Program-made: the position numbers and the translations under genes
Origin: Amycolatopsis sp. GM8
GTDB lineage: Bacteria; Actinomycetota; Actinomycetes; Mycobacteriales; Pseudonocardiaceae
Assembly: GCF_021653975.1 (NCBI RefSeq)
Contig: NZ_JAJKFK010000001.1
Coordinates: 774,863-838,862 of the forward strand
DNA: 64,000 nucleotides
Direction: 5' to 3'
The notes under the pieces: model-generated
What the model saw: only the letters and a program-made list of their open reading frames with translations
The model's database searches: none
Told to the model about the DNA's origin: nothing
Shown: in pieces, positions 23,715-63,138 of the stretch
How positions within the stretch are numbered: the first letter of the stretch is position 1
How the letters are laid out: every line of letters starts with the position of its first letter

Positions 23715-24263
23715 CTACTTGTGATCAGTCGGGTCTTCTCCCTCGGAGAGCGCCTCCCACAGTTCGGTGTCGGGGTCACGCGCGGCCTTGCGCACGCTCG
23801 GTGCCGAATAGCGCGCGCCGAGGCGTGGCATCGCGCCGGCGCGCCTGGTGCTGATCAACCCGCCGAGGAGCACGAGAATTCCCGCGAGCAACGCGAGCCC
23901 ACGGCCGAGGTAGATCTGCCAAATGGGCGCACCCGCGGGAAAACCGCCGAACGACACCCCGTCGACCGCGATCCAGCACGCCCACAGCCCGGCGACAGCG
24001 AGTACCCCACCGAGCACCCGGCGTGGCCAGCCGCCGGTCGCGATGGCACCGGCGACCCCGGCGACGGCGAGAAACGCCAGCGGCACGAGCGCGCCGGAGT
24101 GCTGCGCGCCCGTCTGGGTCTCCAGGATCGTGCCCCGCACGCCGGCGTCACGAAGCTGGGCCGACCAGACGAGCCGAGACGAACCCCACAGTGCCGCCGC
24201 CCCGAGGAGCAACGTCACCGAGACCGTCCACAGTGGACGCTTACTGGACGCTGGCGATGTCAT
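23715..24263 (-). CDS. Trp-operon-associated membrane protein (TIGR02234-type)
   Basis: 182 residues with four hydrophobic helices (about 14-30, 56-74, 84-102 and 122-142) and a charged cytoplasmic tail. Such a protein sits between trpE and trpC in mycobacteria (Rv1610) and other Actinobacteria; its function is not established. The ATG at 24263 lies 23 nt inside the end of trpE, so it is coupled to trpE. A frame extending to 24491 is a trpE shadow. It contains one copy of the GTCC-N3-GTGGAC palindrome. Confidence 0.8.
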
Positions 24264-25812
24264 CGGTCGGATCCAATGCCCTGGCGGGGGCCATGGTCTG
24301 CGCGGCGGCGACGGCCGAAAGCACCGTGCGCGCCTTGTTGAGCGATTCGTTGTCCTCGTAGTCGGCGACCGAGTCCGCGACCACGCCACCGCCGGCCTGC
24401 ACGTACGCGACGTTGTCCCGCACCAGCGCGGTGCGGATGGCGATGGCCGTGTCGGCGTCCCCGGCGAAGTCGAGGTAACCCACGACGCCACCGTAGAGGG
24501 CGCGGCGGACCGGTTCCAGCTCCTCGATCAGTTCCATCGCGCGCACCTTGGGCGCGCCCGACAGGGTGCCGGCCGGGAAGCACGAGGCCACGGCGTCGAA
24601 CGCGGTGCAGTCGTCGCGCAGCTCGCCGGTGACGGTCGACACGATGTGCATCACGTGGCTGTAGCGCTCGATGGTGAAGAAGTCGACGACGTGCACGGTG
24701 CCGGGCTTGCACACCTTGCCGAGGTCGTTGCGGCCCAGGTCGACGAGCATCAGGTGCTCGGCGCGCTCCTTCTCGTCCGCGAGCAGGTCCTTCGCCAGCT
24801 GGGCGTCCTCCTCGGGATCGACGCCGCGCCAACGGGTCCCGGCGATCGGGTGCGTGGTCGCGCGCCCTTCGTGCACGGTGACCAGTGACTCCGGGCTCGA
24901 GCCGACGATGTCGAAACCCTCCAGCCGTAGCAGGTACATGTACGGGCTGGGGTTGGAGGTGCGCAGCACGCGGTAGATGTCGAGCGCGCTCGCCTGGGTC
25001 TCGATCTCGAAACGTTGCGAGGGCACGACCTGGAATGCCTCACCGGCCTTGATCGCCTCGACGGCCGTCTCCACCGCCTGGTGGTAGTCCTCCTTCGTGC
25101 GGTGCCGGCGGAACTCCGGCGCGGGCCGGGAGAACACCGCGGTGGTCGACGGCGCGGCCACCCGCAGCTGCTCGGTCATCGCCTCCAGCCGGCGGACCGC
25201 GTCGTCGTACGCCGCGTCGACGCGCTCCGGTGAGTCGTCCCAGTTCACCGCGTTCGCGATCAGCGTGACCGTGCCCTCGTGGTGGTCGACCGCCGCGAGG
25301 TCGGTCGCGAAGAGCATCGTCAGCTCGGGGATGTCGATGTCCTTCTCGGCCAGCTCTGGCAGCTTTTCCAGCCAGCGCACGGCGTCGTAGCCGATGTAGC
25401 CGACCATGCCGCCGGTCAGCGGTGGCAGGCCGGGCAGCCGCTCGGTGTGCAGCGCGGCCACGGTCTCGCGCAGCACCTGCAGCGGGTTGCCCTCGGTGGG
25501 CAGCCCGACCGGCGGGGTGCCCACCCATACCGCCTTCCCATCACGCACGGTGAGCGCGGCGGGGCTGCGCACTCCGATGAACGACCATCGTGACCAGGAC
25601 TGCCCGTTCTCCGCCGACTCGAACAGGAACGTGCCGGGCCGGTCCGCGGCCAGCTTCCGGTACACGCTGACCGGGGTCTCCCCGTCGGCGAGCAGCCGCC
25701 GGACGACCGGGATGACCCGGCGGCCCTCGGCGAGCGCGCGGAACTCGTCCCGCGGCGGGCTGACGGCACCGAGCCCGACGGGTACGGAACTCGCGGAGTG
25801 GACAGTGACCAT
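24241..25812 (-). CDS. trpE: Anthranilate synthase component I
   Basis: 523-residue chorismate-using enzyme, first committed step of tryptophan synthesis. The N-terminal regulatory part has FLFES (the LLES-like tryptophan feedback element), and the catalytic part has [38 protein letters not shown] and the closing [12 protein letters not shown]. The glutamine amidotransferase partner (trpG) is not in this window. ATG 25812 has TAGGCT ending 6 nt upstream, so the mRNA is probably leaderless and cannot carry a leader-peptide attenuator. Confidence 0.96.
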
Positions 25813-25818
25813 GCGGAA

Positions 25819-25824
25819 AGCCTA
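25819..25824 (-). promoter_or_regulatory. -10 hexamer of the trpE leaderless promoter
   Basis: TAGGCT on the minus strand ends 6 nt before ATG 25812. A 12-bp direct repeat, CTAGCCACGCGC, covers this region (25822-25833) and recurs at 25875-25886. Confidence 0.5.
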
Positions 25825-25909
25825 GCCACGCGCAGCGTGTCCGTGAGGGGTGGTGGTCGGGCGAGGGGCTGGCGCTAGCCACGCGCCGCTGGGCACTCGC
25901 AGACGGCCA

Positions 25910-25933
25910 AGAATTCACCGCTCGTTGAATTCT
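25910..25933. promoter_or_regulatory. Candidate TetR operator between trpE and tetR
   Basis: AGAATTCA (25910-25917) and TGAATTCT (25926-25933) are perfect 8-bp inverted arms around an 8-bp spacer. The site lies 26 bp upstream of the tetR GTG at 25960 and 97 bp upstream of trpE, fitting autoregulation. Confidence 0.55.
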
Positions 25934-25959
25934 GTGCCAGGGCGAGTCATGATGGACTG

Positions 25960-26589
25960 GTGAGCACGACTGATGAACCGAAGGCCGGCAAGCGGCGCGG
26001 CCGCCGCCCCGCCGGGGAGGACACCCGGACGGCGCTCCTGGACGCCGCCCGCGCGGTGTTCTCCGAGAACGGCTACGACGGTGCCACAGTGCGCGCCATC
26101 GCCGCCAGGGCGGGCGTCGACGCGGCCATGGTCAACCACTGGTTCGGCGGCAAGGACTCACTGTTCGCCCAGGCCGTGCTCGAATTGCCGTTCGACCCCC
26201 AGATGGTCGTCGACACGCTGCTCGAGGGCGAGGTGGACACGCTCGGCGAGCGGATCGTCCGCCGGTTCGTGACCGTGTGGGACTCGACCTCGGGCGGCGT
26301 TTTCCCCGCGCTGGTCCGGAGCCTGGCCAGCCATGACAAGGCCGCGATCGGCCTGCGGGACTTCCTGATCAAGAACATCCTCGACAAGATCGTGGCCCAG
26401 ATCAAGACTGACCAACCCCAGTTGCGCGCCACCTTGTGCGCCTCCCAGCTGATCGGCATCGGCATGGCGCGCTACGTCGCGCGGTTCGAGCCACTCGGCT
26501 CGGCCGACACCGAAACGGTGGTGGCCGCGGTAGCGCCCACCCTGCAGCGCTACCTCACCGGCGACATCGGTTCCATCAGTTCGAATTAG
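25960..26589 (+). CDS. TetR family transcriptional regulator
   Basis: 209 residues. A basic N-terminal tail (KRRGRRPAG) precedes the helix-turn-helix ATVRAIAARAGVDAAMVNHW (about 46-65). The C-terminal domain resembles the TetR C-terminal type common in actinobacterial regulators. The GTG at 25960 has a CATGAT hexamer ending 6 nt upstream and no Shine-Dalgarno sequence. It is divergent from trpE, with its likely operator between them; whether it also controls trpE is open. Confidence 0.87.
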   Translation: MSTTDEPKAGKRRGRRPAGEDTRTALLDAARAVFSENGYDGATVRAIAARAGVDAAMVNHWFGGKDSLFAQAVLELPFDPQMVVDTLLEGEVDTLGERIVRRFVTVWDSTSGGVFPALVRSLASHDKAAIGLRDFLIKNILDKIVAQIKTDQPQLRATLCASQLIGIGMARYVARFEPLGSADTETVVAAVAPTLQRYLTGDIGSISSN

Positions 26590-26594
26590 CGTGC

Positions 26595-26765
26595 CGTTTG
26601 TCGCTGATCCGGCGGCAGCCACAGCGGAAACGGGTTTCTGCGAACAGGTCGTGTCCGCCTGCTTTCGACCGGATCAGTACCGCGCCGTTCGTCACCAATC
26701 CGACCACAGTCACGGGTTTCAGCCAGCAGGCCGGGCCGCGGACCGGCTTTTGCCGGATCGGTGAC
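26595..26765. repeat. Two imperfect tandem copies of an ~85-bp element, each bounded by inverted repeats
   Basis: Unit 1 (26595-26677) and unit 2 (26681-26765) share GCCGTTYGTC, then GATCCG-like, CACGGGTTTC-like and CCGGATC-like blocks. Unit 1 is bounded by CTGATCCGG (26604-26612) and CCGGATCAG (26669-26677). Unit 2 is bounded by GTCACCAATCCG (26691-26702) and CGGATCGGTGAC (26754-26765), 11 of 12 pairing. It fills the spacer between two convergent genes and could act as a two-way terminator. Confidence 0.55.
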
Positions 26766-26774
26766 CTGGCTCGT

Positions 26775-27074
26775 TCACACGGCCGCTTTCTCCCCCGCCA
26801 GACCGAGCCTGCGCATCGCTCCCTCCACGTCGCTCGCGTGCGCCACCGCGATCCGTTCCGCGGCCCGCAGCGAGAGCCGTGCGGTGTCGAGGAACTGACG
26901 CAGGTCCTCACCGTCCGTTGTGGACAGTTCGCCAGGGTTGTCCATGTCCGCGCGCATGACCTCGTCCACGGCCCGGTCGATGGCCAGCACGCCGTCCAAC
27001 GCGTCGTCGAGCCGGTTCACCAACTGCCGCGCCCTACCGCGCAATTGTTCGTAATAGAGTTGGGTGTCGCTCAT
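26775..27074 (-). CDS. Hypothetical helical protein (99 residues)
   Basis: Family not recognised. After MSDTQLYYEQLRGRARQLVN the sequence is almost entirely amphipathic helix, with repeated D/E-R patterns and no cysteines, signal peptide or membrane segment. The ATG at 27074 has AAAGG 8-12 nt upstream; a start at 27116 would lie upstream of it. It converges on the TetR gene across the tandem repeat element and lies 132 bp from hisI on the same strand. It contains one GTCC-N3-GTGGAC site. Confidence 0.6.
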   Translation of the reverse strand: MSDTQLYYEQLRGRARQLVNRLDDALDGVLAIDRAVDEVMRADMDNPGELSTTDGEDLRQFLDTARLSLRAAERIAVAHASDVEGAMRRLGLAGEKAAV

Positions 27075-27206
27075 GATCACTACCTTTCGGAACTGGTGGA
27101 AAACCTCGTGTCCCACAGAGTTCCGAAAGAAGTCCCCCTTGGCAACGAATCAGACAACGCGATCCGAAGTTCACCCGTAAGATCGATTTCGCCGACTTCG
27201 GGGCGG

Positions 27207-27563
27207 CTAGCCGCGGTCGTCCGACAGCAACAGTCTTTCCTCGGTGTCGAAGCAACTCCGGGTGTTCGTGTGGCAGGCGGGACCGACCTGGTCGACCCGC
27301 ACCAGGACGGTGTCGGCGTCGCAGTCCAGGCGGACCTCGCGCACGTGCTGGGTGTGCCCCGACGTCTCGCCCTTGACCCACAACTCCTTGCGGCTGCGGG
27401 AAAAGTACGTGCCGCGGCGGGTGGTCAGGGTGGCTTCGAGCGCCTCGTCGTTCATCCACGCGACCATCAGCACGTCCGAGGTCTCGTGGTCGACGACGAC
27501 CGCGCAGATCAGCCCGTCGGCGTTGCGCTTCAGGCGCGCGGCAAGCGCGGGATCGAGCGTCAT
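27207..27563 (-). CDS. hisI: Phosphoribosyl-AMP cyclohydrolase
   Basis: 118-residue zinc enzyme for the third step of histidine synthesis, opening the adenine ring of phosphoribosyl-AMP. Metal ligands are intact: the D-C-D-x-D cluster at 80-84 (Mg and Zn), Cys97 and Cys104. There is no HisE (pyrophosphohydrolase) domain, as in other Actinobacteria where HisE is separate. Its ATG overlaps the stop of the upstream membrane protein by 4 nt. The longer frame upstream is a shadow. Confidence 0.95.
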
Positions 27564-27937
27564 GCCGCGTCTCCGAGCAGATATCGCCGCACGGGCCCCG
27601 AATTCAGCAGCACCCAGCTGTAGATGTAGCCGATCGCCAGCACCGCCGAGAACAGCTTGAACCACAGCACCGCACCGGCCAGCAACAGGAAAGCGTGCAG
27701 CAGCCCCAAAACCGCGGCCACGGCGAAGCCGAAGAACCGGGACGACGGCATCCGCAGCGCGAGCCCGCCCGCGACGAGCCCGCCCAGGACGACGCTCGCG
27801 ACCGGCAACAGCAGCGTGCGCGGCGAGGCGTCGGACGTGGTCACGATGACGATGCCGAGCGCGAGGTAGGCCAGGCCGAGCCCGACCATCATCGCCATCG
27901 CCAGTTTCACTTCGATGGCCACCGATTTGAGCTTCAC
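27560..27937 (-). CDS. Membrane protein embedded in the his operon (125 residues)
   Basis: Not recognised as a named family. Four hydrophobic helices are visible (about 11-30, 39-58, 66-88 and 90-112), the second pair being rich in Phe and Leu. The GTG at 27937 overlaps the hisF stop by 4 nt and the stop overlaps the hisI start by 4 nt, so it is translated as part of hisF-x-hisI. No catalytic motif is visible. Its position suggests co-expression with histidine genes, but no role can be read from the sequence. Confidence 0.75.
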
Positions 27938-28695
27938 CGGATCTCGACTCCCCCGGCGCGCAAGGCATCCTTCACGTCGCCGATCTTCAACTGTCCGAAG
28001 TGGAACACGCTCGCGGCGAGCACCGCGTCCGCACCGGCCAGCACGGCGGGCAGGAAATGCTCCACCGCGCCCGCGCCGCCGCTCGCGATCACCGGCACCC
28101 GCACGACCTTGCGGGTCAGTTCGATCAGCTCGAGGTCGAAACCGTTCTTCGTGCCGTCCGCGTCCATCGAGTTGAGCAGGATCTCGCCCACGCCCAACTC
28201 CTCGCCGCGGGCGGCCCACTCGACGGCGTCGGTTCCGGTGCCCTTGCGACCGCCGTGCGTGGTCACCTCGAAGCCCGACGCGGTCCCGGGCGCGCGGCGC
28301 GCGTCGACCGACAGCACGATGCACTGCGCGCCGAACCGCCGCGACGCCTCGTGCAGGAACTCCGGGCGGGCGATCGCCGCCGTGTTGATGCTCACCTTGT
28401 CCGCGCCCGCGCGCAGCAGCCGGTCGACGTCCTCGCAGGCACGCACGCCACCGCCGACGGTCAGCGGGATGAACACCTGCTCGGCCGTACGGCGCACCAC
28501 GTCGTAGGTGGTCTCGCGGTTGCCGGAGGACGCGGTGACGTCGAGGAAGGTCAGCTCGTCGGCGCCTTCCGCGTCGTACAGGCGGGCCAACTCGACCGGG
28601 TCACCGGCGTCACGCAGGTCGGCGAAGTTGACGCCCTTCACAACACGGCCGGCATCGACGTCCAGGCACGGAATCACCCTTACGGCTACGGACAT
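27934..28695 (-). CDS. hisF: Imidazole glycerol phosphate synthase, cyclase subunit
   Basis: 253-residue TIM barrel that, with HisH, makes imidazole-glycerol phosphate and [17 protein letters not shown] holds the first catalytic Asp (residue 12) and VLSVDARRA the second, with phosphate-binding GGGVR and ASGGAGA loops. ATG 28695 has TATCCT ending 6 nt upstream and is probably leaderless; a start at 28716 is less likely. It heads hisF-membrane protein-hisI. Its partner hisH lies 3.5 kb away in a separate unit. Confidence 0.96.
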
Positions 28696-28701
28696 ATGCC
28701 C

Positions 28702-28732
28702 AGGATATCCGCGCACCCGGAGTTCCTAAGCT
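28702..28732. promoter_or_regulatory. Compact divergent leaderless promoter pair (hisF and the DMT gene)
   Basis: The two start codons are only 43 bp apart. TATCCT on the minus strand (28702-28707) ends 6 nt before hisF. TAAGCT on the plus strand (28727-28732) ends 6 nt before ATG 28739. The hexamers are 19 bp apart, so each promoter's -35 region must overlap the other promoter or gene. Confidence 0.5.
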
Positions 28733-28738
28733 GGCGGC

Positions 28739-29560: not shown

Positions 29561-29591
29561 CCTAGGACGGCCACTGCCTCAAATTAAACAC

Positions 29592-30317
29592 ATGAGGAAT
29601 TCAGCCGTCAGCGTCGACGGCCTCCGGGTGCGTCGCGGCGGGCGCGAGGTGGTGTCCGGCGTGAGCTTCGAGATCGCGGCGGGCGCCGTGACCGGTTTGC
29701 TCGGGCCGAGCGGCTGCGGCAAGACAACCGTCATGCGGTCGATCGTCGGCGTCCAGATCGTCGCGGGCGGCCGGGTGACCGTGCTCGGCGAACCGGCGGG
29801 CAGCCCGGCGTTGCGGCGCAAGATCGGTTACGCCACCCAGGATCCGGCGGTCTACTCGGATCTCACGGTCACCGAATCGCTGCGCTACTTCGCCGCGATC
29901 CTGCGTGCACCATCGTCCGATGTGGACAGAGTGATCGCGTCGGTCGGACTGGAAACCGAGGCACACAAACTGATCGGCGCGCTGTCCGGGGGCGAGCACT
30001 CGCGGGCCAACCTCGCGATCGCGTTGCTGGGCAAGCCGGAACTGCTCGTGCTGGACGAACCGACCGTCGGCCTGGATCCGGTGCTGCGGGACTCGCTGTG
30101 GGGGCTGTTCCGCTCGCTGGCCGCCGCGGGGACGACCCTGCTGGTCTCGAGCCATGTGATGGACGAGGCCGCGCGGTGCGACCGGCTCCTGCTCATGCGC
30201 GACGGCCTGCTGCTGACCGACGACACCCCGGACGGCCTGCGCGACCGCACCGGCTCGGCCGATCTGGAGCAGGCGTTCCTGCACCTGATCCGCGAACAGG
30301 AGGCGGCGCGACCGTGA
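29592..30317 (+). CDS. ABC transporter ATP-binding protein (drug-export type)
   Basis: 241-residue ATPase: Walker A GPSGCGKT near 38-45, signature LSGGE near 136, Walker B LLVLDEP near 157 and switch region VSSHVMDEA near 187. The signature continues HSRANLAIALL rather than the usual QRR, a minor deviation. It overlaps the permease gene by 4 nt (GTGA), so the two form one exporter (ABC-2 type). It contains a GTCC-N3-GTGGAC site at 29915-29927. Confidence 0.9.
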   Translation: MRNSAVSVDGLRVRRGGREVVSGVSFEIAAGAVTGLLGPSGCGKTTVMRSIVGVQIVAGGRVTVLGEPAGSPALRRKIGYATQDPAVYSDLTVTESLRYFAAILRAPSSDVDRVIASVGLETEAHKLIGALSGGEHSRANLAIALLGKPELLVLDEPTVGLDPVLRDSLWGLFRSLAAAGTTLLVSSHVMDEAARCDRLLLMRDGLLLTDDTPDGLRDRTGSADLEQAFLHLIREQEAARP

Positions 30318-31048
30318 ACCCCGTACTGGCTTTCGCCACCGCACGGCGGATCCTGACCCAGCTCCGCCACGACCCGCGCACCGTCGTGATGCTGATCATC
30401 GTGCCGTCGCTGCTGATGGTGCTGCTGCGGTACGTGCTCAACTCGCCGCGGCTGTTCAGCGCCACCGCACCGGCGTTGCTGGGCGTGTTCCCGTTCCTGA
30501 TCATGTTCCTGATCACCTCGGTCACCACGCTGCGCGAACGCACGACCGCGACCCTGGAACGGCTGATGACGCTGCCGATCGGCCGGCTGGACCTGCTGTT
30601 CGGCTACGCGCTGGCGTTCGGCGGGCTCGCGGTCGTGCAGGTCGCCGTCGCCGCCGGGGTGTCGGTGACGTGGCTCGGTCTCGACGTCCGCGGCTCGCTG
30701 TGGCTGCTGATGCTCATCGCGGTGCTCGACGCACTGCTGGGGATGGCGCTCGGCCTGTTCGTCAGCGCGTTCGCCCGTACCGAGTTCCAGGCGATCCAGT
30801 TCATGCCGGTGTTCGTGCTGCCGCAGATCCTGCTGTGCGGCCTGTTCGTGGCACGCGCGTCGATGGGCTGGGTGCTGCACTGGCTGTCGAACGTGATGCC
30901 GCTTTCCTACGCGGTGGAGGCGCTCGGCCGCGTCACCACTTCGTCCACAGTGGACATCACGTTGGTGCGGGACCTGCTGGTGGTGGCGGGCTGCGCGCTG
31001 CTCGCGCTGGTGCTGGGCGCGGCCACGTTGCGCCGGCGGACGCCGTGA
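30314..31048 (+). CDS. ABC-2 type transporter permease
   Basis: 244 residues with six hydrophobic helices; the segment LRERTTATLERLMTLPIGRL near 70-90 is the conserved ABC-2 cytoplasmic motif. Start is the GTG at 30314 that overlaps the ATPase stop; the frame upstream is a shadow. Together with the ATPase it should export a hydrophobic compound of unknown identity. One palindromic GTCCACAGTGGAC lies at 30943-30955. Confidence 0.88.
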   Translation: MNPVLAFATARRILTQLRHDPRTVVMLIIVPSLLMVLLRYVLNSPRLFSATAPALLGVFPFLIMFLITSVTTLRERTTATLERLMTLPIGRLDLLFGYALAFGGLAVVQVAVAAGVSVTWLGLDVRGSLWLLMLIAVLDALLGMALGLFVSAFARTEFQAIQFMPVFVLPQILLCGLFVARASMGWVLHWLSNVMPLSYAVEALGRVTTSSTVDITLVRDLLVVAGCALLALVLGAATLRRRTP

Positions 31049-31055
31049 GCACCGC

Positions 31056-32939: not shown

Positions 32940-33296
32940 ATGCTTTCGCAAAGCGGTTCGACCACGAGACCGACCCGAAGAATCATCACGCTGGCCGATG
33001 AACTGGCCGACGAACTCTCCCGTTTCGACGCCGACGAGCTGGGCACGGCCGAACTGCGCGGGCTGATGCGCGGGATGACCGGCACCGCCTCGGCGCTCAC
33101 CCGGATCCTCGACCAGCTGCGCGAGTGCCCTGTGCTCACCCAGTCCGAGCTGGACCGGCCCGCGCACCAGACGATGCGCAGCGAGCTGGACCAGGCGGCC
33201 GCCGCGGCCGAGGATCTGCGGGTGACCGCCGAGTCACTGTGCCGGCTGCTCCCGGTGGACATGTCCGGCCCGCTCAGTTCCCGCAGAAGTCGCTGA
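32940..33296 (+). CDS. Hypothetical protein (118 residues)
   Basis: Family not recognised. After a polar N-terminus ([14 protein letters not shown]) it is predicted helical, with the run [20 protein letters not shown] and a later [20 protein letters not shown] segment; one Cys in the middle and one near the end. There is no signal peptide or membrane helix. The ATG at 32940 has GGGAG 7-11 nt upstream; a GTG at 32934 is an alternative. It overlaps the convergent transketolase gene by 23 nt and is divergent from hisH. Confidence 0.65.
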
Positions 33297-34149
33297 TCGC
33301 GGCCTGCAGGCTGGGCAGGTCGAGGCCGTGAACGGCGTCGTGGTCGGCGGGGTTGCCGTAGACGCGCACCTCCGCGTCGCGGCGGACGCCCAGCGAACGC
33401 AGCCGGTGCGGCACGTCCGCCAGCGCCTGCGCGACCTGGTGTGCGGACGTGCCCGCCAGGTATGGCTCGACGAGCACGACGTCGGCGACATCGCCGATCG
33501 CGGCCCGTAAACCCTTGGCGTCGAAGGGGCGGATCGTGTTGGCGTACAACAAGGTCACATCCAGGTCCCCGGTCGCGGCGAGTACCCGATCCAACACGGG
33601 TCCGACGGCCAGCACGACGCCACGGCGCCCTTCGCGCAGTAGCTGGAAGCCCGCGCCGAGGTGTGGCCGCGCGTTCGTCTGGTCGCTCAGCCGCACGTAA
33701 ACGGCGCTGTCGCCCGGCAAGGACTCGAGCAGCAGCCGTCGTGCCTCGCCGGGATGCCCGGGGACGTGCACGGTCCAGCCCGGCACGGTGTCGAGCAACG
33801 CGACGTCGGCCGGCGACTGGTGCGTGCGACCGGGCAGGTCGTAGGACGCGCCCGAGGACACCAGCACCGCGCCTACGCCTTGATGCGTCAGGTCGAGTTT
33901 GATCTGTTCGTACGGCCGCTCGACGAGGAAGGGCGCCAGGGCGTGCGCCACCGGACGCAGGCCGGCCAGCGCCAGCCCGCCGGCCACGCCGATGAGCGCC
34001 TGCTCGCGGTTGCCGACGTCGAGCACCCGGCCGGGATACCGGCGCCGCGCGTGCGCCACCGACTCCGCCGGGATGTCCGCGAGCACCAGCACCAGCCGCG
34101 GATCGGCGGCCAGCGCTTCGTCCATTGTGGACAGGAAGGTGGCGCGCAC
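33274..34149 (-). CDS. Transketolase C-terminal subunit (split transketolase-like)
   Basis: 291 residues covering the pyrimidine-binding and C-terminal domains of transketolase: DVGNREQALIGVAGGLALAG holds the catalytic Glu that contacts thiamine diphosphate, and a Rossmann-like C-terminal domain follows. It pairs with the N-terminal subunit encoded 3 nt upstream; together they make one functional enzyme of unknown sugar specificity. They are probably co-transcribed from a SoxR-type promoter. It has a GTCC-N3-GTGGAC site at 34120-34132. Confidence 0.85.
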   Translation of the reverse strand: MRATFLSTMDEALAADPRLVLVLADIPAESVAHARRRYPGRVLDVGNREQALIGVAGGLALAGLRPVAHALAPFLVERPYEQIKLDLTHQGVGAVLVSSGASYDLPGRTHQSPADVALLDTVPGWTVHVPGHPGEARRLLLESLPGDSAVYVRLSDQTNARPHLGAGFQLLREGRRGVVLAVGPVLDRVLAATGDLDVTLLYANTIRPFDAKGLRAAIGDVADVVLVEPYLAGTSAHQVAQALADVPHRLRSLGVRRDAEVRVYGNPADHDAVHGLDLPSLQAAISDFCGN

Positions 34150-34152: not shown

Positions 34153-34794
34153 TCAGCGTCTCGCCGGTTCGACGACCGCCACCACGCACAGCGGCTGGGC
34201 CGGATGGGGCGCGGTGAATGCGTCGTACAACGCTTCGTGGTCATGGCCGTCGACCACGCGGGTTGCCCAGCACTCGACCGCGAACCGGCGCTCGATGCCG
34301 CCGGGCCAGCCGTGGGTGGCCGACGCGCTGTCGATCACCACGGCGGTCAGCTGGTCCATCGCCAGGCGCCCGGCGAGCGCGATCGCCTCGGCGTTCGAGC
34401 CCTCGTCGAGCTCGGCGTCGCCGATGAGCACCATGACCTTCGGCCTGGTGATCCGCTGCGCGCGCAAGCCGAAGACGGTGCCGAGCGCCAGCGCCAGCCC
34501 GTGCCCGGGCGAGCCGGTCGAGATTTCCGCGCCCGGCACGCGGGTTCGGTCCGGGTGCGGGCCCAGGCGCGAGCGCACGGACGTCCGGTCGCCGAGTTCG
34601 TCCGGGTCGAGGAATCCTTTGGCGGCGAGCACGGCGTAGTACGGCATCGACTCGTGCCCGTCGGACAGCAGGAATCGGTCACGCTTCGGATCGCGCACCG
34701 TTTCCGGCGACACGTTCAGCACCCGGTCGAAAAGCACCCAGAGCACGTCCACAGTGGACCCCCACGCGGCCAGGTCCTTGGTGACGGTGGTCAT
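34153..34794 (-). CDS. Transketolase N-terminal subunit (thiamine diphosphate-binding)
   Basis: 213 residues, the pyrophosphate-binding half of a transketolase. The metal and diphosphate motif GDAELDEGSNAEA lies near 128-140, and the substrate-phosphate loop LSDGHESMPYYAVLA near 43-57. It is shorter than the usual 270-residue N-terminal subunit. ATG 34794 is 6 nt after a CACCGT hexamer with TTGACT 19 bp further upstream, matching a MerR-family promoter. It faces soxR. Confidence 0.85.
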   Translation of the reverse strand: MTTVTKDLAAWGSTVDVLWVLFDRVLNVSPETVRDPKRDRFLLSDGHESMPYYAVLAAKGFLDPDELGDRTSVRSRLGPHPDRTRVPGAEISTGSPGHGLALALGTVFGLRAQRITRPKVMVLIGDAELDEGSNAEAIALAGRLAMDQLTAVVIDSASATHGWPGGIERRFAVECWATRVVDGHDHEALYDAFTAPHPAQPLCVVAVVEPARR

Positions 34795-40493: not shown

Positions 40494-43505
<3,012 letters not shown>

Positions 43506-51476: not shown

Positions 51477-52325
51477 TCAGGGCAAGTCCAGCCCCAGATC
51501 GAGCGCGGGCGAGGAGTGCGTAAGACCGCCGACGGCCAGATAGTCCACACCAGACTCGGCATAAGCTCGGGCATTGTGGAGCTTCAGCCCACCCGAAGCC
51601 TCCAGCCGCGTCTTCGGCGAGCGCTTGTCCCGGATCCGCACGGCACTCGCGCAGTCACCGGGCGTGAAGTTGTCCAGCAGCACCTCGTCCGCGCCGGCCT
51701 CCAGCGCCTCCGACAGCTGCGCCAGGGTATCCACTTCGACTTCGCACGGCAGGTCCGCCGCGTGCGCCCGCACCGCCTCGATCGCCGCCGCGACCGAACC
51801 CGCCGCGACCACGTGGTTGTCCTTGATCAGCACCGCGTCGCCGAGCCCCATCCGGTGGTTCACCCCGCCACCGCAGCGCACCGCGTACTTCTGCAAGAGC
51901 CGCAGCCCCGGCAGAGTCTTGCGCGAATCCCGGATCCGGCAGCCGGTACCGTCCACTTCGGACACCCAGGCCGCGGTCGCCGTCGCGACGCCGGACAGAT
52001 GGCACAACAGGTTCAAGGCCGTCCGCTCCGCCGTGAGCAGCCCCCGCACGGAACCGCGCAACACCAGCGCGGGCTCCCCGGCGACGAGCTTGCTCCCGTC
52101 TTCAACGGCGGAGATCACCTCGTAGTCGTTGCCCAGCACCTGGTCGAACACGGCGAGCGCGACCGGCATCCCGGCGAGCGTGCCGTTGACGCGCGGCGTG
52201 ATCTCCGCCCGCGCGGTGGCGCTTTCGGGCACGGTCGCGTTGGTGGTCGCGTCCGGGCCGTACCGCAGGTCCTCGGCGAGCGCGAGCTCCACCACGCGCC
52301 GGGCGTCGTCCAGGTCCAGTGTCAT
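51477..52325 (-). CDS. nadC: Nicotinate-nucleotide pyrophosphorylase (quinolinate phosphoribosyltransferase)
   Basis: 282-residue enzyme, last of de novo NAD synthesis: quinolinate + PRPP to nicotinate mononucleotide. RDSRKTLPGLRLLQKYAV and the closing ASGGLKLHNARAYAESGVDYLAVG loops are intact. The ATG at 52325 overlaps the nadB stop by 4 nt. The longer frame upstream is a nadB shadow. A GTCC-N3-GTGGAC site is at 51951-51963. Confidence 0.96.
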   Translation of the reverse strand: MTLDLDDARRVVELALAEDLRYGPDATTNATVPESATARAEITPRVNGTLAGMPVALAVFDQVLGNDYEVISAVEDGSKLVAGEPALVLRGSVRGLLTAERTALNLLCHLSGVATATAAWVSEVDGTGCRIRDSRKTLPGLRLLQKYAVRCGGGVNHRMGLGDAVLIKDNHVVAAGSVAAAIEAVRAHAADLPCEVEVDTLAQLSEALEAGADEVLLDNFTPGDCASAVRIRDKRSPKTRLEASGGLKLHNARAYAESGVDYLAVGGLTHSSPALDLGLDLP

Positions 52326-53968
52326 GCCGCTCCCATCGCCGCGACCGGATCCGCCAGCACGGGCTGCCCCGACGGGCTGAGCCGGATCAGCTGGCTGCGC
52401 TGCCACGTTTCGTCGTCCCGGACCGGGAAATCCGCGCGGACGTGGCAGCCGCGCGACTCCGTCCGCCGCTCGGCCGCCGCCACCAGCGCCTGCGCGACCA
52501 GCGTCAGCGCCGCGTCCTCGACATCCCGGTGCGTCCGCAGTGGACGGTCCTGTGTGGACAGATCGAGTACCGAGCCCAGCACCGCGAGGCCATCGGCGTC
52601 CCGGCCGATGGCGGCGTACCGGCTCATCGCGCGCTGCAAGCCGTCGCGATCGGCGACCGGCGCGGTTTTCAACCGGGGTTCCCTGGCCTGCTTGGGATCC
52701 GCGAGCAGCCCGGCCGCGAGATCCGCGGCCACCGACTCGGCCGTGCCCGCGCCCGTCACCAGGCCTTCGAGCAAACTGTTGGACGCCAACCGGTTCGCGC
52801 CGTGCAGCCCCGTCCTGGCGACCTCGCCGGCCGCGTACAGCCCGGTCACTCCGGTGCGCCCGTCCGTCCCGGCCACGACGCCACCGCACGCGAAATGCGC
52901 GGCCGGGGTCACCGGGATCGGGTCCCTGGCCGGGTCGACGCCGATCGCACGGCAGGCCGCGAACACCGTCGGGAACCGCTCGGCGAAGGACGAAACACCT
53001 GTGGCATCGAGGAAAACGTGATCGTCGATCCCGCCCGGCGCCGTCGTCATCCGGCGCGTGATCGCGGCCGAGACGACATCCCGCGGCGCGAGATCACCCA
53101 GCGGATGCACGCCCCGCATCACCGACGCGCCCGCGCCGTCAACGAGGACAGCGCCCTCACCGCGGACGGCCTCCGTCACCAGCGGGCACCGGCCCCGCGC
53201 ACCGGGCGTGTACAGGACGGTGGGGTGGAACTGCACGAATTCCAGATCCGCCGCCTGCGCACCCGCCCGCAACGCGAGGGCGAGCCCGTCGCCGGTCGCG
53301 ATCTCGGGATTCGACGTCGCCTGGTACAGCTGGCCCAGCCCGCCGGTCGCGAGCAACACCGCGGGCGCGCGCAGCAGGCCCGGCACGCCGTTCGGATCGA
53401 GCACGGTCACGCCCCCGACCGCGCCGAGCGGCGTGAGCAACGCGTCGACCGCGATGTGCCGCTCCAGCACGGGAAGCCGCCGCCCGGTCGCCTCGGCGAC
53501 GAGCGTCCGCTCCACCTCGGCACCCGTCGCGTCGCCACCGGCATGGATCACCCGGAACGCACTGTGCCCGCCTTCGCGCGTGCGCGCCAGCAACCCCGTG
53601 GCACCCGGATCGAACCGGGCGCCGACGTCGCGCAGCCACGAGACCGACCGCGGGCCGGCGTGCAGGATCGACCGCACCGCGTCGGGTTCACACAAGCCGG
53701 CGCCCGCGACGAGCGTGTCCTCGACGTGCCGGTCCACAGAGTCGCCCTCGTCGTGCTCGCCGTCCAGGACGACCGCGACACCCCCCTGGGCCCAACGCGT
53801 GTTGCCGTCCCCGACCGCGGCCTTGGTGACCACGAGGACGCGCAGCCCCAGCTCCTGAGCGCGCAGCGCGGCGGTCAGCCCGGCCACCCCGCTGCCCAGC
53901 ACGAGCAGATCCGCGCGGGCTTCCCACACGGGAGTTTTCGTCTGATAGTCGGTAACCGGCGTGGTCAT
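52322..53968 (-). CDS. nadB: L-aspartate oxidase
   Basis: 548-residue flavoenzyme that oxidises aspartate to iminoaspartate for quinolinate synthesis. The FAD-binding [16 protein letters not shown] is at 24-39; [18 protein letters not shown] near 370 and the conserved HPT..Y segment (QFHPTVLY) are present. The ATG overlaps the nadA stop by 4 nt. It has two GTCC-N3-GTGGAC sites only one base apart (52533-52545 and 52547-52559). Confidence 0.96.
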
Positions 53969-56489: not shown

Positions 56490-56495
56490 CCGCCC

Positions 56496-56621: not shown

Positions 56622-56635
56622 GGCGCGAGGCGGGG

Positions 56636-57235: not shown

Positions 57236-57274
57236 TGGTGCCTCTCCTTCGCCGCGCCTGCTGGCACAGCGAGA

Positions 57275-57481
57275 CTAGCCGGTCCCCTCACTCGTGCACG
57301 CACCGTGTCGGCTACATCGCGCGACCCAGCCCGCCGGGGTCACCTGCACGACCATCCGCCGCGCGCACTGCGCGCAGAACCGCGGCGGCTCGAGCGCGGT
57401 CCGCGGGTTGTGGCAGGCCGGGTGCTCGCCGCCGGCGAGCGACTGTCCGCAGTGGACACAGAACGCGACCGTCGCGGTCAC
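57275..57481 (-). CDS. bsaP: BsaP-like biotin synthase auxiliary protein (68 residues)
   Basis: A small cysteine-rich protein: Cys8-x2-Cys11, Cys23, Cys36-x2-Cys39, Cys56 and Cys62, with His10, 20, 24 and 59. This spacing suits an iron-sulfur or zinc site. The GTG overlaps the bioB stop by 4 nt, the same arrangement as Rv1589-Rv1590 in M. tuberculosis, where the partner is an iron-sulfur accessory protein needed by biotin synthase. The identification rests on position and cysteine pattern. One GTCC-N3-GTGGAC site lies at 57445-57457. Confidence 0.75.
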
Positions 57482-58494
57482 AACGTCTCGCTCAGCGCCT
57501 TGATCGGCATCTTCAGCTCGTCGAGCATGGCCAGGTCCTGGCTCGCCGGGCGGCCCAGGTTGGTCAGGTAGTTGCCGACGATGATCGCGTTGATGCCGCC
57601 GAGCATGCCCTGCTCGGCGCCGAGGTCACCGAGGGTCAGCTCGCGCCCGCCGGCGAACCGCAGCATCGTGCGCGGCATCGCGAGCCGGAACGCAGCGACG
57701 ACCCGCAGCGCGTCCGGGCCTTCGACGATCTCGTACTGCTCGTACGGGGTGCCCGGCTGCGGGATGAGGAAGTTCATCGGCACTTCGTCGGGCTCCAGCT
57801 CGGCCAGCTGCACCGCGAACTCCGCGCGCTGCTCGGCGGTCTCACCCATGCCGATGATGCCGCCGGAGCAGACCTCCATGCCGGCGTCGCGCACCATCCG
57901 CAGGGTGTCCCAGCGCTCCTCCCAGGAGTGCGTGGTGACGACGTTCGGGAAGTGCGAGCGGGCGGTCTCGAGGTTGTGGTTGTAGCGGTGCACGCCCATC
58001 TCGACCAGCTCGTCGACCTGCTCCTGCGTGAGCATGCCCAGCGAGCAGGCGATCTGGATGTCGTTGCCGTCGGCGCGAATGGCCTGGACGCCCTCGCGCA
58101 CCTGCGACAGCAGCCGCTTGTCCGGGCCGCGCACGGCGGCGACGATGCAGAACTCGGTCGCGCCGGTCTCGGCGGTCTGCCGGGCGGCCTTGACCAGGCC
58201 CGGGATGTCCAGCCACGCCGAGCGCACCGGGGTCGGGAACCGGCCGGACTGCGAGCAGAAGTGGCAGTCCTCCGGGCAGCCGCCGGTCTTGAGGCTGACG
58301 ATGCCCTCGACCTCGACCTCGGGGCCGCACCAGCGCATCCGGACCTCATGCGCGAGCGCGAGCAGGTCGGACAGCTTGTCGTCGGGCAGCCGGAGCACGT
58401 CGAGTACCTGCTGCTGGGACAGGCCGACGCCCCGTTCGAGTACCTGCTCCCGGGCGACGGCGAGCACGTCGGTCTGTTCGGGCGCTGAGGTCAC
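57478..58494 (-). CDS. bioB: Biotin synthase
   Basis: 338-residue radical SAM enzyme that inserts sulfur into dethiobiotin. The radical SAM cluster motif is CPEDCHFC (Cys73, 77 and 80); Cys residues and Asn-x-N motifs for the auxiliary cluster follow ([25 protein letters not shown]). GTG 58494 has GAGGAG upstream. It is coupled to bsaP. The 77-bp gap to bioD has no gene. Confidence 0.96.
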
Positions 58495-58571
58495 GGACTC
58501 TCTCCTCTTCGAGCACGGCGCTGTCGGTAGTCATGCTGCCGGACGGAGCGCCGTAGGTATAGCGACGACGG

Positions 58572-59294
58572 TCACGTCCGGGCGGCGGCGGACTTCTGGA
58601 AGCTCTCGGGATCGAAGTCGCCGCCGAACCACGGCGACAGCCCGCCCCGCGCCTCGGCGAGGAACTCCGCCTGCTCCAGGCGCCCTGCCCCGGCCGGCAA
58701 CGCGCCGAGCAACGGCGCGCCCGCGGCCACGGGCAGGTCGCCGACATTGGACAGCGCCGCGAGATCCGGCTCCGCGGGCCAGGAGCCGATCACGACACCG
58801 GCGACGTGCAGCCCGCGCGCGGTGGCGACCTCGGCGGTCAGCGCGGTCGCGTTCAGCGTGCCGAGACCGGCCTCGGCGACCACCAGCACGACCGCGCCGA
58901 GCGCCCACGCGACGTCCGTGAGGGTGGTGCCGTCCGGCCCGAACCGCACGAGCAGCCCGCCCGCGCCCTCGACCAGCACCAGGTCGTGCGTGTCATCGAG
59001 CTCGGTCGCGGCGCTCGCGATCTCGGCCGGGGTCAGCGGCGGAATCCCGCTGCGGCGGGCCGCCGCCTCCGGCGAGAGCGGGTCGGGATAGCGGCGAAGC
59101 TCCCGGGTGGTGACGTCCCCGGCCAGCCGGACCACCTCGGCGAGGTCACCCGGCTCGCTCGGCGCCACTCCGGTCTGCGCCGGCTTGAGCACCGCGACCC
59201 GCTGACCGCCGTCCCGGGCGAGCGCGGCGATCGCCGCCGTGACGGCAGTCTTACCGACGCCGGTACCTGTCCCCGTCACCACGAGCATGCTCAC
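58572..59294 (-). CDS. bioD: Dethiobiotin synthetase
   Basis: 240-residue ATP-dependent enzyme that closes the ureido ring of dethiobiotin using CO2. The P-loop GTGTGVGKT is at 8-16, then VLKPAQTG near 39, and [11 protein letters not shown] near 109. GTG 59294 (or ATG 59288) is the start; TACGGT lies 8 nt upstream. Its upstream neighbour, only 24 bp away, encodes a SulP-carbonic anhydrase. Confidence 0.95.
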
Positions 59295-59317
59295 AGAACT
59301 TCACCGTAGTACCGGAC

Positions 59318-61564
59318 CTAATTCCCCATGGTCACCGCCCGCCTGACCGGGCCGAAAGATCCCGTCTCGGGGTCGTACAGATGCACTCGCGCGCCGCCGA
59401 CGTCGAAGTACATCCCCCACAGCTCCACGTCCCCGCGCGCCTCGGCACGCGCGATCGTCGGGTACTGCCGCAGCCGGTCCACCTGCTCCAGCACGTTGTG
59501 GAGGGCGAGCTGGTCCACGCCCGCCGGCACCTCGCCCGCGACGGCGATCGGCGGGCGGGTCCGCGCCCGCTCGAGGCTCGGCTCGGCGTACCGCAGCCAC
59601 GAGCGCAGCGCCGTCGCGTCCTCGGGCGCACCGTGCAGCCGGGCGTTCATCGCACCGCACGAGGAATGGCCGCACACCACGATCTCCCGCACCCGGAGCA
59701 CGTCCACCGCGAACTCCAGCGACGCCCCGATGGACGAGTCGGCGCTCGCGTGGTCGGGCACGAGGTTGCCGATGTTGCGGATGGTGAACAGGTCGCCCGG
59801 CCCGCTGCTGGTGATCAGGTTCGGCACGATCCGCGCGTCGCCGCACGTGATGAACAGCGTCTGCGGCTCGTGCACGTTGGCGAGCCGGCTCAGGATCGGC
59901 CGCACCAGCCGCGACGTGCGGCGGTCGAACTCGACCATGCCGCGCCGCATCGAGCTTTCCCGGCCGCGCTGCTCGGGCACCTGCGGGACGGCCTCCTGCC
60001 AGTCCGACCACGGCGCGAACCAGCGCGGCAACACCGGCGGCGCCTGCGCCTTGTGCACGGTCGGCTCACCGGCCTTGCCGCGCTGGAACCACGGGTGCCC
60101 GATCTCGTCCACGAGCACCGTGCCGCCGGCCTGCTCGTGCGAGTGCTGCCAGGCCGAGAGCAGCTCGAACGCGGCGTGGTCGAGGTAGTCGACGACCAGT
60201 TCCAGCGTCACCCGGCTGCCCTGCGGAATCCCACTGAGCACAGTGGACAGTCGCGGGATCGACAGTGACGACAGCGCGCCCTCGACGACCACCCGCCAGC
60301 CGTCGCCGTCCTGCTCGGCGTGGATCCCGGACCACAGCAGGCGCCGCAACATGACCAGGGCCGCCAGGCCGATGCCGATCAGCACGCCGGTCAGCAGGTC
60401 CACCGCTACCACGCCGACGAGCGTCACGAGGTACACGGGCAGGTCGCCGTGGCGCAGCACGTCCTTGATGTGCCCGATGTCGACCAGGTTGGCGCCGACG
60501 TAGACGAGCAGCCCGGCCAGCGCTGCGAGCGGGATGTTGCGCAGCAGCCCGGCGAGCACGGCGACGAACAGCAGGATCCACAGCCCGTGCAGCACGGCCG
60601 CGGCGCGACTACGCGCCCCGGACCGCACGTTCGTCGAGCTGCGCACGATGACGCCGGTGACCGGGAGGCCGCCGAGCGAACCCGAGGCCATGTTCGCCGC
60701 GCCCTGCCCGATCAGCTCGCGGTTGAGGTTGGCGCGCGGGCCGGTGTGCATCTTGTCCGTGGCGACCGCCGACAGCAGGCTCTCCACGCTCGCGACCAGC
60801 GCGACCGTCACGACCGCGAGCCCGAAGTCGTACCAGCCACCGCTGGGGAACTCGGGCACGAACCTGATGTCCAGCACGTTCGCCGGCACGTCGACCCGCG
60901 GCACGCTCATCCCGGCGGCGACCGACAGCACCGTGACGGCGACGATCGCGACGAGCGGCCCCGGCACCTTCCGGACCGCCGCCGGCAACCGGCCCCAGAC
61001 CAGCAGGATCGCGATGGTCAGCACGCCGAGCAGGGTGGCGAGGCCGTGCGGGTTGAGCAGTTGCCGTGGCAGCTGCAGCAGGTTGCCGACGGGCGAACTC
61101 TGCGCCGTGCCACCGAGGATCACGTGCAGCTGCGCGAGCACGATCGTCACGCCGATCCCGGCGAGCATGCCGTGCACGATCGCCGGCGAGATGGCGAGCG
61201 CGGCGCGGGCGATCCGGCTCAGCCCGAGCAGGATCTGCAGTGCACCGGCCAGCACGGTGATCGCGCAGGTGACCGCCCAGCCGAACTCGGTGATGGTCTC
61301 GGCGATGATCACGGTGAGCCCGGCCGCGGGCCCGCTGACCTGCAGCGGCGATCCGCCCAGCAACCCCGCGACGATCCCGCCGACGATCGCGGCGACGAGG
61401 CCGGCGACGACGGGTGCGCCCGAGGCGAGCGCGATGCCCAGCGAGAGCGGAATGGCCACCAGGAACACCACCAGCGAGGCCGGGATGTCGTGCCTGAGGT
61501 TCTGGAATGCCTTGTGCCGACGGCCTTTCGGACGCGGTGGTGCGTGCTCGCGTGCGGTGATCAC
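59318..61564 (-). CDS. SulP-type anion transporter fused to a beta-carbonic anhydrase
   Basis: 748 residues. The first ~430 form a SulP permease with ten or more helices, then a degenerate STAS-like linker, then a beta-carbonic anhydrase (about 530-748) with zinc ligands in CGDARI and HSSCG. It resembles mycobacterial Rv3273-type fusions; it may move bicarbonate and interconvert CO2 and bicarbonate. GTG 61564 has GGGAGG upstream. It lies between bioA and bioD on the same strand. Confidence 0.9.
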   Translation of the reverse strand: MITAREHAPPRPKGRRHKAFQNLRHDIPASLVVFLVAIPLSLGIALASGAPVVAGLVAAIVGGIVAGLLGGSPLQVSGPAAGLTVIIAETITEFGWAVTCAITVLAGALQILLGLSRIARAALAISPAIVHGMLAGIGVTIVLAQLHVILGGTAQSSPVGNLLQLPRQLLNPHGLATLLGVLTIAILLVWGRLPAAVRKVPGPLVAIVAVTVLSVAAGMSVPRVDVPANVLDIRFVPEFPSGGWYDFGLAVVTVALVASVESLLSAVATDKMHTGPRANLNRELIGQGAANMASGSLGGLPVTGVIVRSSTNVRSGARSRAAAVLHGLWILLFVAVLAGLLRNIPLAALAGLLVYVGANLVDIGHIKDVLRHGDLPVYLVTLVGVVAVDLLTGVLIGIGLAALVMLRRLLWSGIHAEQDGDGWRVVVEGALSSLSIPRLSTVLSGIPQGSRVTLELVVDYLDHAAFELLSAWQHSHEQAGGTVLVDEIGHPWFQRGKAGEPTVHKAQAPPVLPRWFAPWSDWQEAVPQVPEQRGRESSMRRGMVEFDRRTSRLVRPILSRLANVHEPQTLFITCGDARIVPNLITSSGPGDLFTIRNIGNLVPDHASADSSIGASLEFAVDVLRVREIVVCGHSSCGAMNARLHGAPEDATALRSWLRYAEPSLERARTRPPIAVAGEVPAGVDQLALHNVLEQVDRLRQYPTIARAEARGDVELWGMYFDVGGARVHLYDPETGSFGPVRRAVTMGN

Positions 61565-61741
61565 GGTGCCTCCCGGTATCGGTCCCCGATGGGGGTGGAG
61601 TGGGTTCCCGGCTCGTCCCCAGTGACCGCCGGTGACTCACTGATACCGAAAAACAGGCAGATTGTCCGTTATGTAAAGAACTCTCACGTTTTGTGCACAG
61701 CGGGTGGTGACCAGCTGACGGTGCCGGCGCCAGCGGAGTGC

Positions 61742-61755
61742 GTGATCATGATCAC
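61742..61755. promoter_or_regulatory. 14-bp perfect palindrome between bioA and the SulP gene
   Basis: GTGATCATGATCAC is a perfect palindrome in the 293-bp gap 61565-61857. The same gap has an AT-richer stretch near 61627-61690. No gene is visible. It may be an operator for the downstream SulP-bio genes; the partner is unknown. Confidence 0.35.
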
Positions 61756-61857
61756 CCCATGGCGTCCACGGACGCGTTGGCCCCGACACTGCGTGACCAT
61801 CCGCGGTGCCGTGTCTGTCGTCACACCAGATGGGGTGAAGTTCTCGCGAGAGGCCGT

Positions 61858-63138
61858 TCAGGCGGCGCGAGCGGCCGCCGTCATCGCCTCGGTGATGGCC
61901 CCGACCTCGGCGTCCGTGCAGATGTACGGCGGCATCGCGTAGATCAGGTCGCGGAACGGGCGCAGCCACACTCCGCGTTCGGTGACCACTTTCGTGGCCG
62001 CCGCGATGTCGACCTCGTGGTCCAGCTGGATGACCCCGATCGCACCGAGCACCCGCACGTCGGCGACCCCCGGCTGGTCCGCCACGCCGGCCAGGCCCGC
62101 GCGCAGGCCCGTTTCGATCCGCCGCACGGTACCCGGCCAGTCCTGGCCCAGCAGCAGGTCGATCGAGGAGTTCGCGACCGCGGCGGTCAGCGGGTTGCCC
62201 ATGAACGTCGGGCCGTGCGCGAGCACCGGCAGCTCACCACGGGAGATCCCCGCGGCGACCTCCGGCGTGCACAACGCGGCGGCCATGCTGAGGTAACCGC
62301 CGGTCAGCGCCTTGCCCAGGCAGAACACGTCCGGCGTGACGCCCGCGTGTTCGGCGGCGAACAGCGTGCCCGTGCGCCCGAAGCCGGTCGCGATCTCGTC
62401 GAAGATCAGCAGCACGTCGTGCGCCTCGGTCAGCTCGCGCAGCGCGCGCAGGTAGCCGGGGTTGTGGAAGCGCATCCCGCCCGCGCCCTGCACGACGGGC
62501 TCGACGATGACGGCGGCCAGTTCGTCGGCGTGCTCCTCGATCGCGCGCGCCAGAATGTCCACATAGGACTCGTCGACGGGCGTATCGAACCCGCGGGGCG
62601 GTTCGGGCACGAACACCTGCTCGGGCAGCACCCCGCGCCACAGCGAGTGCATGCCGCCGTCCGGGTCGCACACGCTCATCGGCTGGAAGGTGTCCCCGTG
62701 GTAGCCGCCGCGCCAGGTCAGCAGGCGGCGCTTTCCCTTGCGTCCCACCGATTGCCAGTACTGCAGGCACATCTTCACCGCGACCTCGACCGAGACCGAG
62801 CCGGAGTCGCACAGGAAGACGTGCTCCAGCCCCGGCGGGGTCAGCTCGGCGAGCTTGGTGGCGAGCCGGATCGCGGGCTCGTTCGTGAGCCCGCCGAACA
62901 TGACATGACTCATCCGGCCGGCCTGCTCCGCGAGGGCGGCGTCGAGCACCGGGTGCCGGTAGCCGTGGATCGCCGCCCACCACGACGACATGCCGTCGAC
63001 CAGCTCGCGGCCGTCGGCCAGCCGCAGCCGCACCCCCGACGCTTCGGTCACCAGCAGCGGCTCCCCCTGGCCCGGCATCGGGCCGTAGGGGTGCCACACA
63101 TGGTGCGCGTCGAGGGCGAGCAGCTGGGCGGGGTCCAC
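61858..63138 (-). CDS. bioA: Adenosylmethionine-8-amino-7-oxononanoate aminotransferase
   Basis: 426-residue PLP aminotransferase that makes diaminopelargonate, using S-adenosylmethionine as amino donor. [37 protein letters not shown] and the PLP lysine in CLGKALTGG are present. GTG 63138 follows TAGGGT by 7 nt (leaderless); the longer frame is a P450 shadow. The 15-bp TGTCCACATAGGACT at 62556-62570 is identical to one in hisC. Confidence 0.95.

Follow-up and report, generated by a model that had tools for sequence, protein, structure and literature searches.

A Highly Iterated Palindrome of Pseudonocardiaceae Genomes as the Probable Binding Site of a PadR-Family Protein

Our analysis of a 64,000-nt stretch of DNA from Amycolatopsis sp. 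GM8 (hereafter the window), of the 8.16 Mb genome to which it belongs (G000) and of related genomes suggests that the dispersed gapped palindrome YGTCCACWGTGGACR, with an A/T centre, is probably the binding site of a PadR-family protein that turned chromosome-wide binder in Pseudonocardiaceae. The palindrome agrees with the control site of a single small, conserved DNA-binding protein, pointing to a local switch that grew into a binder of the whole chromosome, and chromosome-wide binding is further suggested by the fact that the dispersed copies are intragenic and conserved. The motif, its enrichment, its clade limit, its conservation at synonymous positions, the promoter sites and the linkage of the PadR gene were all observed computationally.

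Enrichment of the Palindrome Within Genes

To define the motif, we used 864 kb of the own genome (121 places) and 400 kb of a second genome, G008 (127 places), which gave the consensus above. Both strands were searched with the pattern GTCCNNNGTGGAC, and genes were the calls of a simple purpose-made gene caller. The own genome holds 542 + 561 = 1,103 strand hits, compared with 3 + 6 = 9 for the reversed pattern; since perfect palindromes score on both strands, we estimate that these correspond to ~900-950 distinct places. The spacing is strict: GTCC-N5-GGAC was counted 215 times, whereas the other gaps that keep the codon phase average 39 and reach 48 at most. The motif was recovered by a gapped-dyad ranking and was not among the top 16 ungapped k-mers of any length from 6 to 10 (window, Markov null).

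Most in-gene sites over the 864 kb (95 of 113) share one main codon phase. Protein constraint does not explain them, because synonymous shuffles yield far fewer sites. Perfect sites with an A/T (W) centre occur in genes 16 times in the 864 kb of the own genome, where two synonymous nulls give 0.1-0.2, and 43 times in G008 (0.2-0.8 expected), whereas the form with a G/C (S) centre is not enriched in either genome (1 vs 1.2-2.2 and 2 vs 4.5-6.0, respectively). In addition, a codon-order control with TCC, GTG, GAC and one A/T-ending codon after G found the order TCC-NNW-GTG-GAC 67 times and the 23 other orders four times combined; in G008, the palindromic order was found 73 times and the other orders three times. 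That eight of the 121 sites are not wholly within called genes (11.9 expected) also argues that the DNA is favoured and not the protein alone. The sites outside called genes have no obvious neighbour in common.

Along the chromosome, the sites are spread randomly over the 864 kb (coefficient of variation of spacing 1.01; variance/mean 0.90), and 84 sites of one sub-pattern are uniform along the G034 chromosome (Kolmogorov-Smirnov p 0.41). A ParB-like clustering was considered and dropped because the number of GTCC-N5-GGAC pairs no more than 30 bp apart in the own genome (22) is near the random expectation (~15, a hand estimate).

Taxonomic Range of the Motif

The nearest relatives with a name (93-94% identity to Amycolatopsis proteins) put the window within or beside Amycolatopsis, and family f1 is accordingly taken to be Pseudonocardiaceae. 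Among 200 genomes of f1, the number of strand hits ranges from 25 to 2,389 per genome and that of perfect W-centre places from 0 to 640. By comparison, 345 genomes from the phylum's other families yielded 20 perfect places, spread over 15 genomes, and with the looser pattern the highest density among 97 further genomes of the class is ~15 strand hits per Mb vs 135 per Mb in the own genome. In loci with genus names, core sites occur at 124-322 per Mb in Saccharothrix, Lentzea, Prauserella, Amycolatopsis and Actinokineospora, while Saccharopolyspora and Saccharomonospora have one core site in 21 kb each, Tamaricihabitans has none in 7 kb of named loci, and Nocardia, Rhodococcus, Prescottella and Hoyosella have none in 651 kb. 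The motif is therefore both over-represented and clade-specific, as are the iterated palindromes of the highly iterated palindrome (HIP) type. No description of it was found among the matches listed in the searched literature, whose coverage leaves out most subscription papers.

A PadR-Family Gene Carries the Palindrome in Its Own Promoter

Seventeen loci, covering 19 of the 20 perfect places outside the family, were fetched. In four of them, from four families (L233, L239, L246, and L247), the perfect site lies in the promoter of a PadR-subfamily gene, with two sites 33 bp apart in L233; the remaining 13 loci have no such PadR gene at the site. The PF03551 domain (Pfam cut-off, 27 bits) was detected in all four of these proteins (36.8-45.9 bits) and in all four in-family proteins analyzed (33.2-37.2 bits). 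PF10400, a C-terminal dimerisation domain, was detected in the four out-of-family proteins and in none of the four in-family ones at E 0.001; the predicted structure of the in-family protein has two long C-terminal helices (mean predicted local distance difference test score 80.8; predicted template modeling score 0.67). PqqD families also match the PadR proteins weakly, below the NCBIfam cut-off and just above the Pfam cut-off in three of four proteins.

An alignment of the four out-of-family proteins was then used as the query of a protein search. A match at 1e-20 was found in 194 of the 200 f1 genomes and one of ortholog strength (E 2e-39 or better) in 189, counts of best matches, which in some genomes are another paralog (e.g., L250-L257 and L259) and need not be the prfB-linked copy in every genome. 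Outside the family, seven of 147 other genomes of the class match at 1e-32; two of these (G477 and G327) were already among the four loci found through the motif, and the other five (G568, G555, G249, G434, and G403) came from the protein search alone. Among the genomes found by protein search alone, G568 carries GTCCACAGTGGAC and GTCCACAGAGGAC upstream of the gene, 32 bp apart, and G555 carries imperfect sites upstream. Motif copies lie in the PadR promoter of locus L284.

The own copy of the PadR gene is located outside the window (G000:C20:493336-493842, minus strand). Of 23 loci, 20 have the gene just upstream of prfB, which encodes peptide chain release factor 2, and the G403 locus is one of them. 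NCBIfam identified prfB in L287 and L286, and a short sequence pattern did so in the others; an FtsE-like sequence follows in eight of the 23, where the locus extends far enough. Within the family, 28 of 32 promoters, picked by hand or by score and thus a non-random set, carry at least one CC-N2-W-GTGGAC site (two in 18, one in 10, and none in 4). Where there are two sites, their distance is 21-25 bp, and in 13 of the 18 promoters it is exactly 22; as palindromes, the promoter operators are imperfect.

The helix-turn-helix stretch TRSQ[VI]YREL is common to the in-family proteins and to those PadR proteins from outside the family that have this operator. PadR proteins with TQSQ have CACWATGG-type sites upstream instead in five of seven cases (L250, L251, L254, L282, and L283; not L252 or L253), and in G249 and G434, with TQSQ in place of TRSQ, the upstream sites are TTCCACTATGGAA/G. 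It is possible that TRSQ and TQSQ represent a one-residue specificity switch, seen in few independent lineages. In genus g33 (L255-L257 and L259), a PadR paralog has IQRSQAYREL or IQHSQAYREL in its helix-turn-helix. That distant homologs have an autoregulated operator in common is strong circumstantial evidence of the protein's specificity.

Based on these sequence comparisons, we infer that the PadR protein binds these sites, that binding is the function under selection, and that the protein senses its own level. A winged-helix PadR protein encoded just upstream of prfB would bind YGTCCACWGTGGACR, whose palindromic symmetry would suit a dimeric protein. The starting state may be that of close homologs in a few other Actinobacteria, with one or two sites at their own promoter as a usual autoregulated operator. 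In Pseudonocardiaceae, copies of the site would have arisen chiefly through base substitutions, and chiefly in a single codon phase, until the chromosome carried as many as several hundred perfect ones and more than a thousand looser ones, retained by selection. The protein would then bind its specific sequence all along the chromosome, in a nucleoid-associated or global role, and through the imperfect tandem sites of its own promoter it would sense how much of it is free.

Co-Variation With the Gene and Conservation of Sites

All nine genomes of genus g42 lack an ortholog-strength match (four have none at 1e-20 and five only matches of 1e-22 to 1e-25), and all nine have 0 perfect sites and a looser count at background. 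In a 20-row tree built from a single metabolic gene, g42 falls inside the family as sister to g5 (support 88/96), so the PadR gene was probably lost in g42.

Individual sites are also conserved. Of the loci aligned over the histidinol dehydrogenase site, 32 of the 48 from Pseudonocardiaceae retain its core form, as do none of the 31 of Nocardia/Rhodococcus type. Site density is roughly similar in DNA that two congeners also have (182 per Mb, 41 sites) and in the DNA that they lack (143 per Mb, 25 sites). Aligned core sites were compared in four congeners of ~81% identity; among the sites not kept, an indel accounts for two or three per congener pair and substitutions for the remainder. The wobble base of the NNW codon of the motif is still A/T in 13/24, 10/23, 8/13 and 4/10 aligned cases in the four congeners (0.40-0.62), compared with a retention of 0.05-0.22 for seven A/T-ending codons elsewhere, which is conservation above baseline; the motif measure (A/T) and the baseline (exact base) differ slightly in a way that favours the motif, and the scrambled control has n = 1.

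Several observations weigh against binding by the PadR protein as the explanation of the dispersed sites. Sites turn over between congeners: 16 of 42 aligned ones are kept in G113, 15 of 40 and 5 of 23 in two others, and 4 of 21 in G175. The four out-of-family PadR cases were found through the motif itself, and the prfB-linked ortholog of G403, outside the family, has no visible motif site in its promoter. Since its sister g5 is motif-poor, the loss in g42 amounts to one event in an already motif-poor lineage. All ten g5 genomes keep the gene and have 0-1 perfect sites, with the operator absent from four of five promoters read. Other genera are likewise motif-poor despite the gene: with g5, the genera g24, g35, g38 and g39 (match in all sampled genomes) and g3 (match in 8/10) have 0-3 perfect sites. 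The two g3 genomes with no protein match are G138 and G191 (87 and 90% completeness), and the latter has three perfect sites. Finally, the number of operators correlates only moderately with site density (rho 0.53, n = 32, p 0.0016, uncorrected for relatedness), G102, G005 and G196 being exceptions with two operators and 0-1 perfect sites. Because g5 and other genera keep the gene and stay motif-poor, its presence is not sufficient for the motif; it may nevertheless be needed.

In locus L286 (G403), an inverted repeat, GCACTGTCG-TCGGC-CGACAGTGC, lies upstream of the PadR gene in place of GTCCAC sites.

Motif Sites of the Window

With both strands counted, the window holds 15 distinct motif places, compared with 0.34 in its shuffles (standard deviation 0.64; maximum of 3 among 100 shuffles). 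They are:

3448..3460, minus strand: motif site GTCCACATTGGAC (plus-strand letters), within gene 2248-3552 (plus), codon phase 0
11319..11331, minus strand: motif site GTCCACACCGGAC (plus-strand letters), within gene 7227-11837 (minus), phase 2 (PSGVD)
24226..24238, unstranded: perfect palindrome GTCCACAGTGGAC, outside called genes
26913..26925, plus strand: motif site GTCCGTTGTGGAC, within gene 26775-27080 (minus), phase 2 (LSTTD)
29915..29927, plus strand: motif site GTCCGATGTGGAC, in ATP-binding cassette (ABC)-transporter ATPase gene 29592-30317 (plus), phase 2 (SSDVD)
30943..30955, unstranded: perfect palindrome, in ABC-2 type transporter gene 30314-31048 (plus), phase 2 (SSTVD)
34120..34132, plus strand: motif site GTCCATTGTGGAC, in transketolase-domain gene 33274-34149 (minus), phase 2 (LSTMD)
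34747..34759, unstranded: perfect palindrome, in transketolase N-domain gene 34153-34794 (minus), phase 2 (GSTVD)
41197..41209, minus strand: motif site, in class I/II aminotransferase gene 41086-42183 (minus), phase 2 (QSYVD)
42537..42549, unstranded: perfect palindrome, in histidinol dehydrogenase gene 42180-43505 (minus), phase 2 (VSTVD)
51951..51963, minus strand: motif site, in quinolinate phosphoribosyltransferase gene 51477-52325 (minus), phase 2 (VSEVD)
52533..52545, plus strand: motif site GTCCGCAGTGGAC, in flavin adenine dinucleotide (FAD)-binding-domain gene 52322-53968 (minus), phase 1 (RPLRT)
52547..52559, plus strand: motif site GTCCTGTGTGGAC, in the same FAD-binding-domain gene 52322-53968 (minus), phase 2 (LSTQD), 14 bp from the 52533 site
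57445..57457, plus strand: motif site GTCCGCAGTGGAC, outside called genes, 20 bp off the 3' end of gene 57478-58494 (minus)
62557..62569, minus strand: motif site, in class III aminotransferase gene 61858-63147 (minus), phase 2 (ESYVD)

An earlier note on the window had listed 13 of these places, all at exact coordinates and with four perfect palindromes among them, as we also found; the minus-strand matches at 3448 and 11319 had been overlooked. Its statement that every site lies in coding sequence was incorrect, as 24226 and 57445 are outside any called gene and 13 of the 15 places are within genes. Incorrect too was the claim of mixed reading frames, on which its case against protein constraint had been built, since 11 of the 13 in-gene sites have the single codon phase xxG TCC NNN NNG GAC; the conclusion that protein constraint is insufficient nevertheless holds, for the synonymous shuffles give far fewer sites. 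The note had named two outcomes that would speak against it, a genome-wide count no higher than the codon-shuffled expectation and absence from close relatives; neither was observed, as the count over 864 kb lies above that expectation and congeners, like most genera of the family, carry the motif. Finally, of its three guesses on function (methylation target, architecture motif, or binding site of a nucleoid protein), a nucleoid-type protein binding site is the best supported, and a PadR-family candidate can now be named.

Other palindromes were also observed. In G008 (C1:1-400000), a TTTAGC-N2-GCTAAA dyad occurs ten times with about none expected, probably as a small repeat family. A second dispersed palindrome, CSTTGC-NSN-GCAASG with A/T-rich flanks, has 67 places in the own genome vs 6 for the reversed pattern and 15 in-gene places over 864 kb vs 0.5-0.8 in synonymous nulls; in a survey of the own and 196 other genomes of the class, it also has 11-28 places in genus g47 (family f2) and is patchy elsewhere.

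Alternative Explanations

It is conceivable, though we consider it unlikely, that the PadR protein does bind the palindrome while the dispersed copies play no role in chromosome structure and instead either act solely as a sink, fixing how much protein is free, or regulate weakly at many places within genes. Both the random spread of the sites and the imperfect palindromes of the promoter operators are compatible with this explanation, but the conservation of individual sites above baseline appears to exceed what a sink would need.

Methylation targets are seldom as long as 13-15 bp with an inner half that tolerates change, and methylation would not predict the motif at PadR promoters in and outside the family. 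We therefore give a low probability to a methyltransferase that acts on the palindrome with enrichment as the consequence, even though the W centre is enriched and the S centre is not, and although the cyanobacterial HIP1 is an iterated palindrome tied to methyltransferases (PMC4390886).

Paired DnaA boxes are very improbable. The half site TGTCCACA resembles the actinobacterial DnaA box, TTGTCCACA, and occurs outside the palindrome 47 times vs 11 for its reverse. However, TTGTCCACA itself occurs there 7 times vs 4 reversed, and the T preference two bases out is absent; other Actinobacteria have DnaA and show little or no enrichment of the motif. DnaA boxes were rejected on these counts.

A selected mRNA hairpin, with a four-pair stem and a five-base loop, is just as hard to credit. 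The central base of the perfect main-phase sites of G008 (L043-L062) is T 29 times vs A 10 times on the coding strand, though the codon ACA is commoner than ACT, which is unexpected for a symmetric site and would agree with a hairpin; but the own genome has no such skew (8 vs 6), full pairing leaves a one-base loop, and some sites lie outside called genes. Least credible of all is that codon usage, a common Ser-x-x-Asp peptide or mutation bias produced the motif with no selection on the DNA, since the strong codon-phase preference that would suit it (95/113) is set against the synonymous shuffles, the codon-order control, the sites not wholly in called genes (8/121, with 11.9 expected) and the conservation of rare wobble bases.

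Comparison With Known Systems

Iterated palindromes of the HIP1 kind were described long ago, and to our knowledge their function is not agreed upon. The PadR and AphA proteins of solved structure are local regulators. The present protein is related to both by sequence (PDB 5x11, E 6e-10; 1yg2, E 5e-7) and, unlike them, has a candidate operator dispersed over the chromosome.

At the DNA level, the closest parallel is HIP1, the highly iterated palindrome GCGATCGC of cyanobacteria, likewise a short, clade-specific palindrome with very many copies that is scarce or almost missing in part of its clade (PMC4390886). The present motif differs in being longer (13-15 bp), tolerant in its inner half, less dense and unrelated to GCGATCGC in sequence, and in being linked to a transcription-factor-type protein where HIP1 is linked to methyltransferases, which were not surveyed here.

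At the protein level, NapM provides a precedent for wide binding by a PadR protein. This mycobacterial nucleoid-associated protein (structure 8JXK), for which the part of the source available cites 573 chromatin immunoprecipitation sequencing sites in M. tuberculosis, is likewise small and of the PadR family; that part describes no iterated palindrome for NapM (PMC13340245). A close relationship was considered and rejected, as phmmer gives E 0.0016 to 8jxk and the solved PadR chains 5x11, AphA, 3l9f and 6jyi rank higher.

Whether an autoregulated PadR repressor became the chromosome-organising protein of the family by way of operators in hundreds of genes is, in our judgment, evenly balanced; the iterated palindrome would then have a protein partner that can be named, and g42 would be a genus without both protein and sites. 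Here, sequence evidence links such a palindrome to a single small, conserved protein, and because this protein belongs to culturable actinomycetes, the function of such a motif becomes a one-gene experiment. If the proposal is true, multiplying the sites of a local switch within coding sequence is one way in which a chromosome-wide binder can arise.

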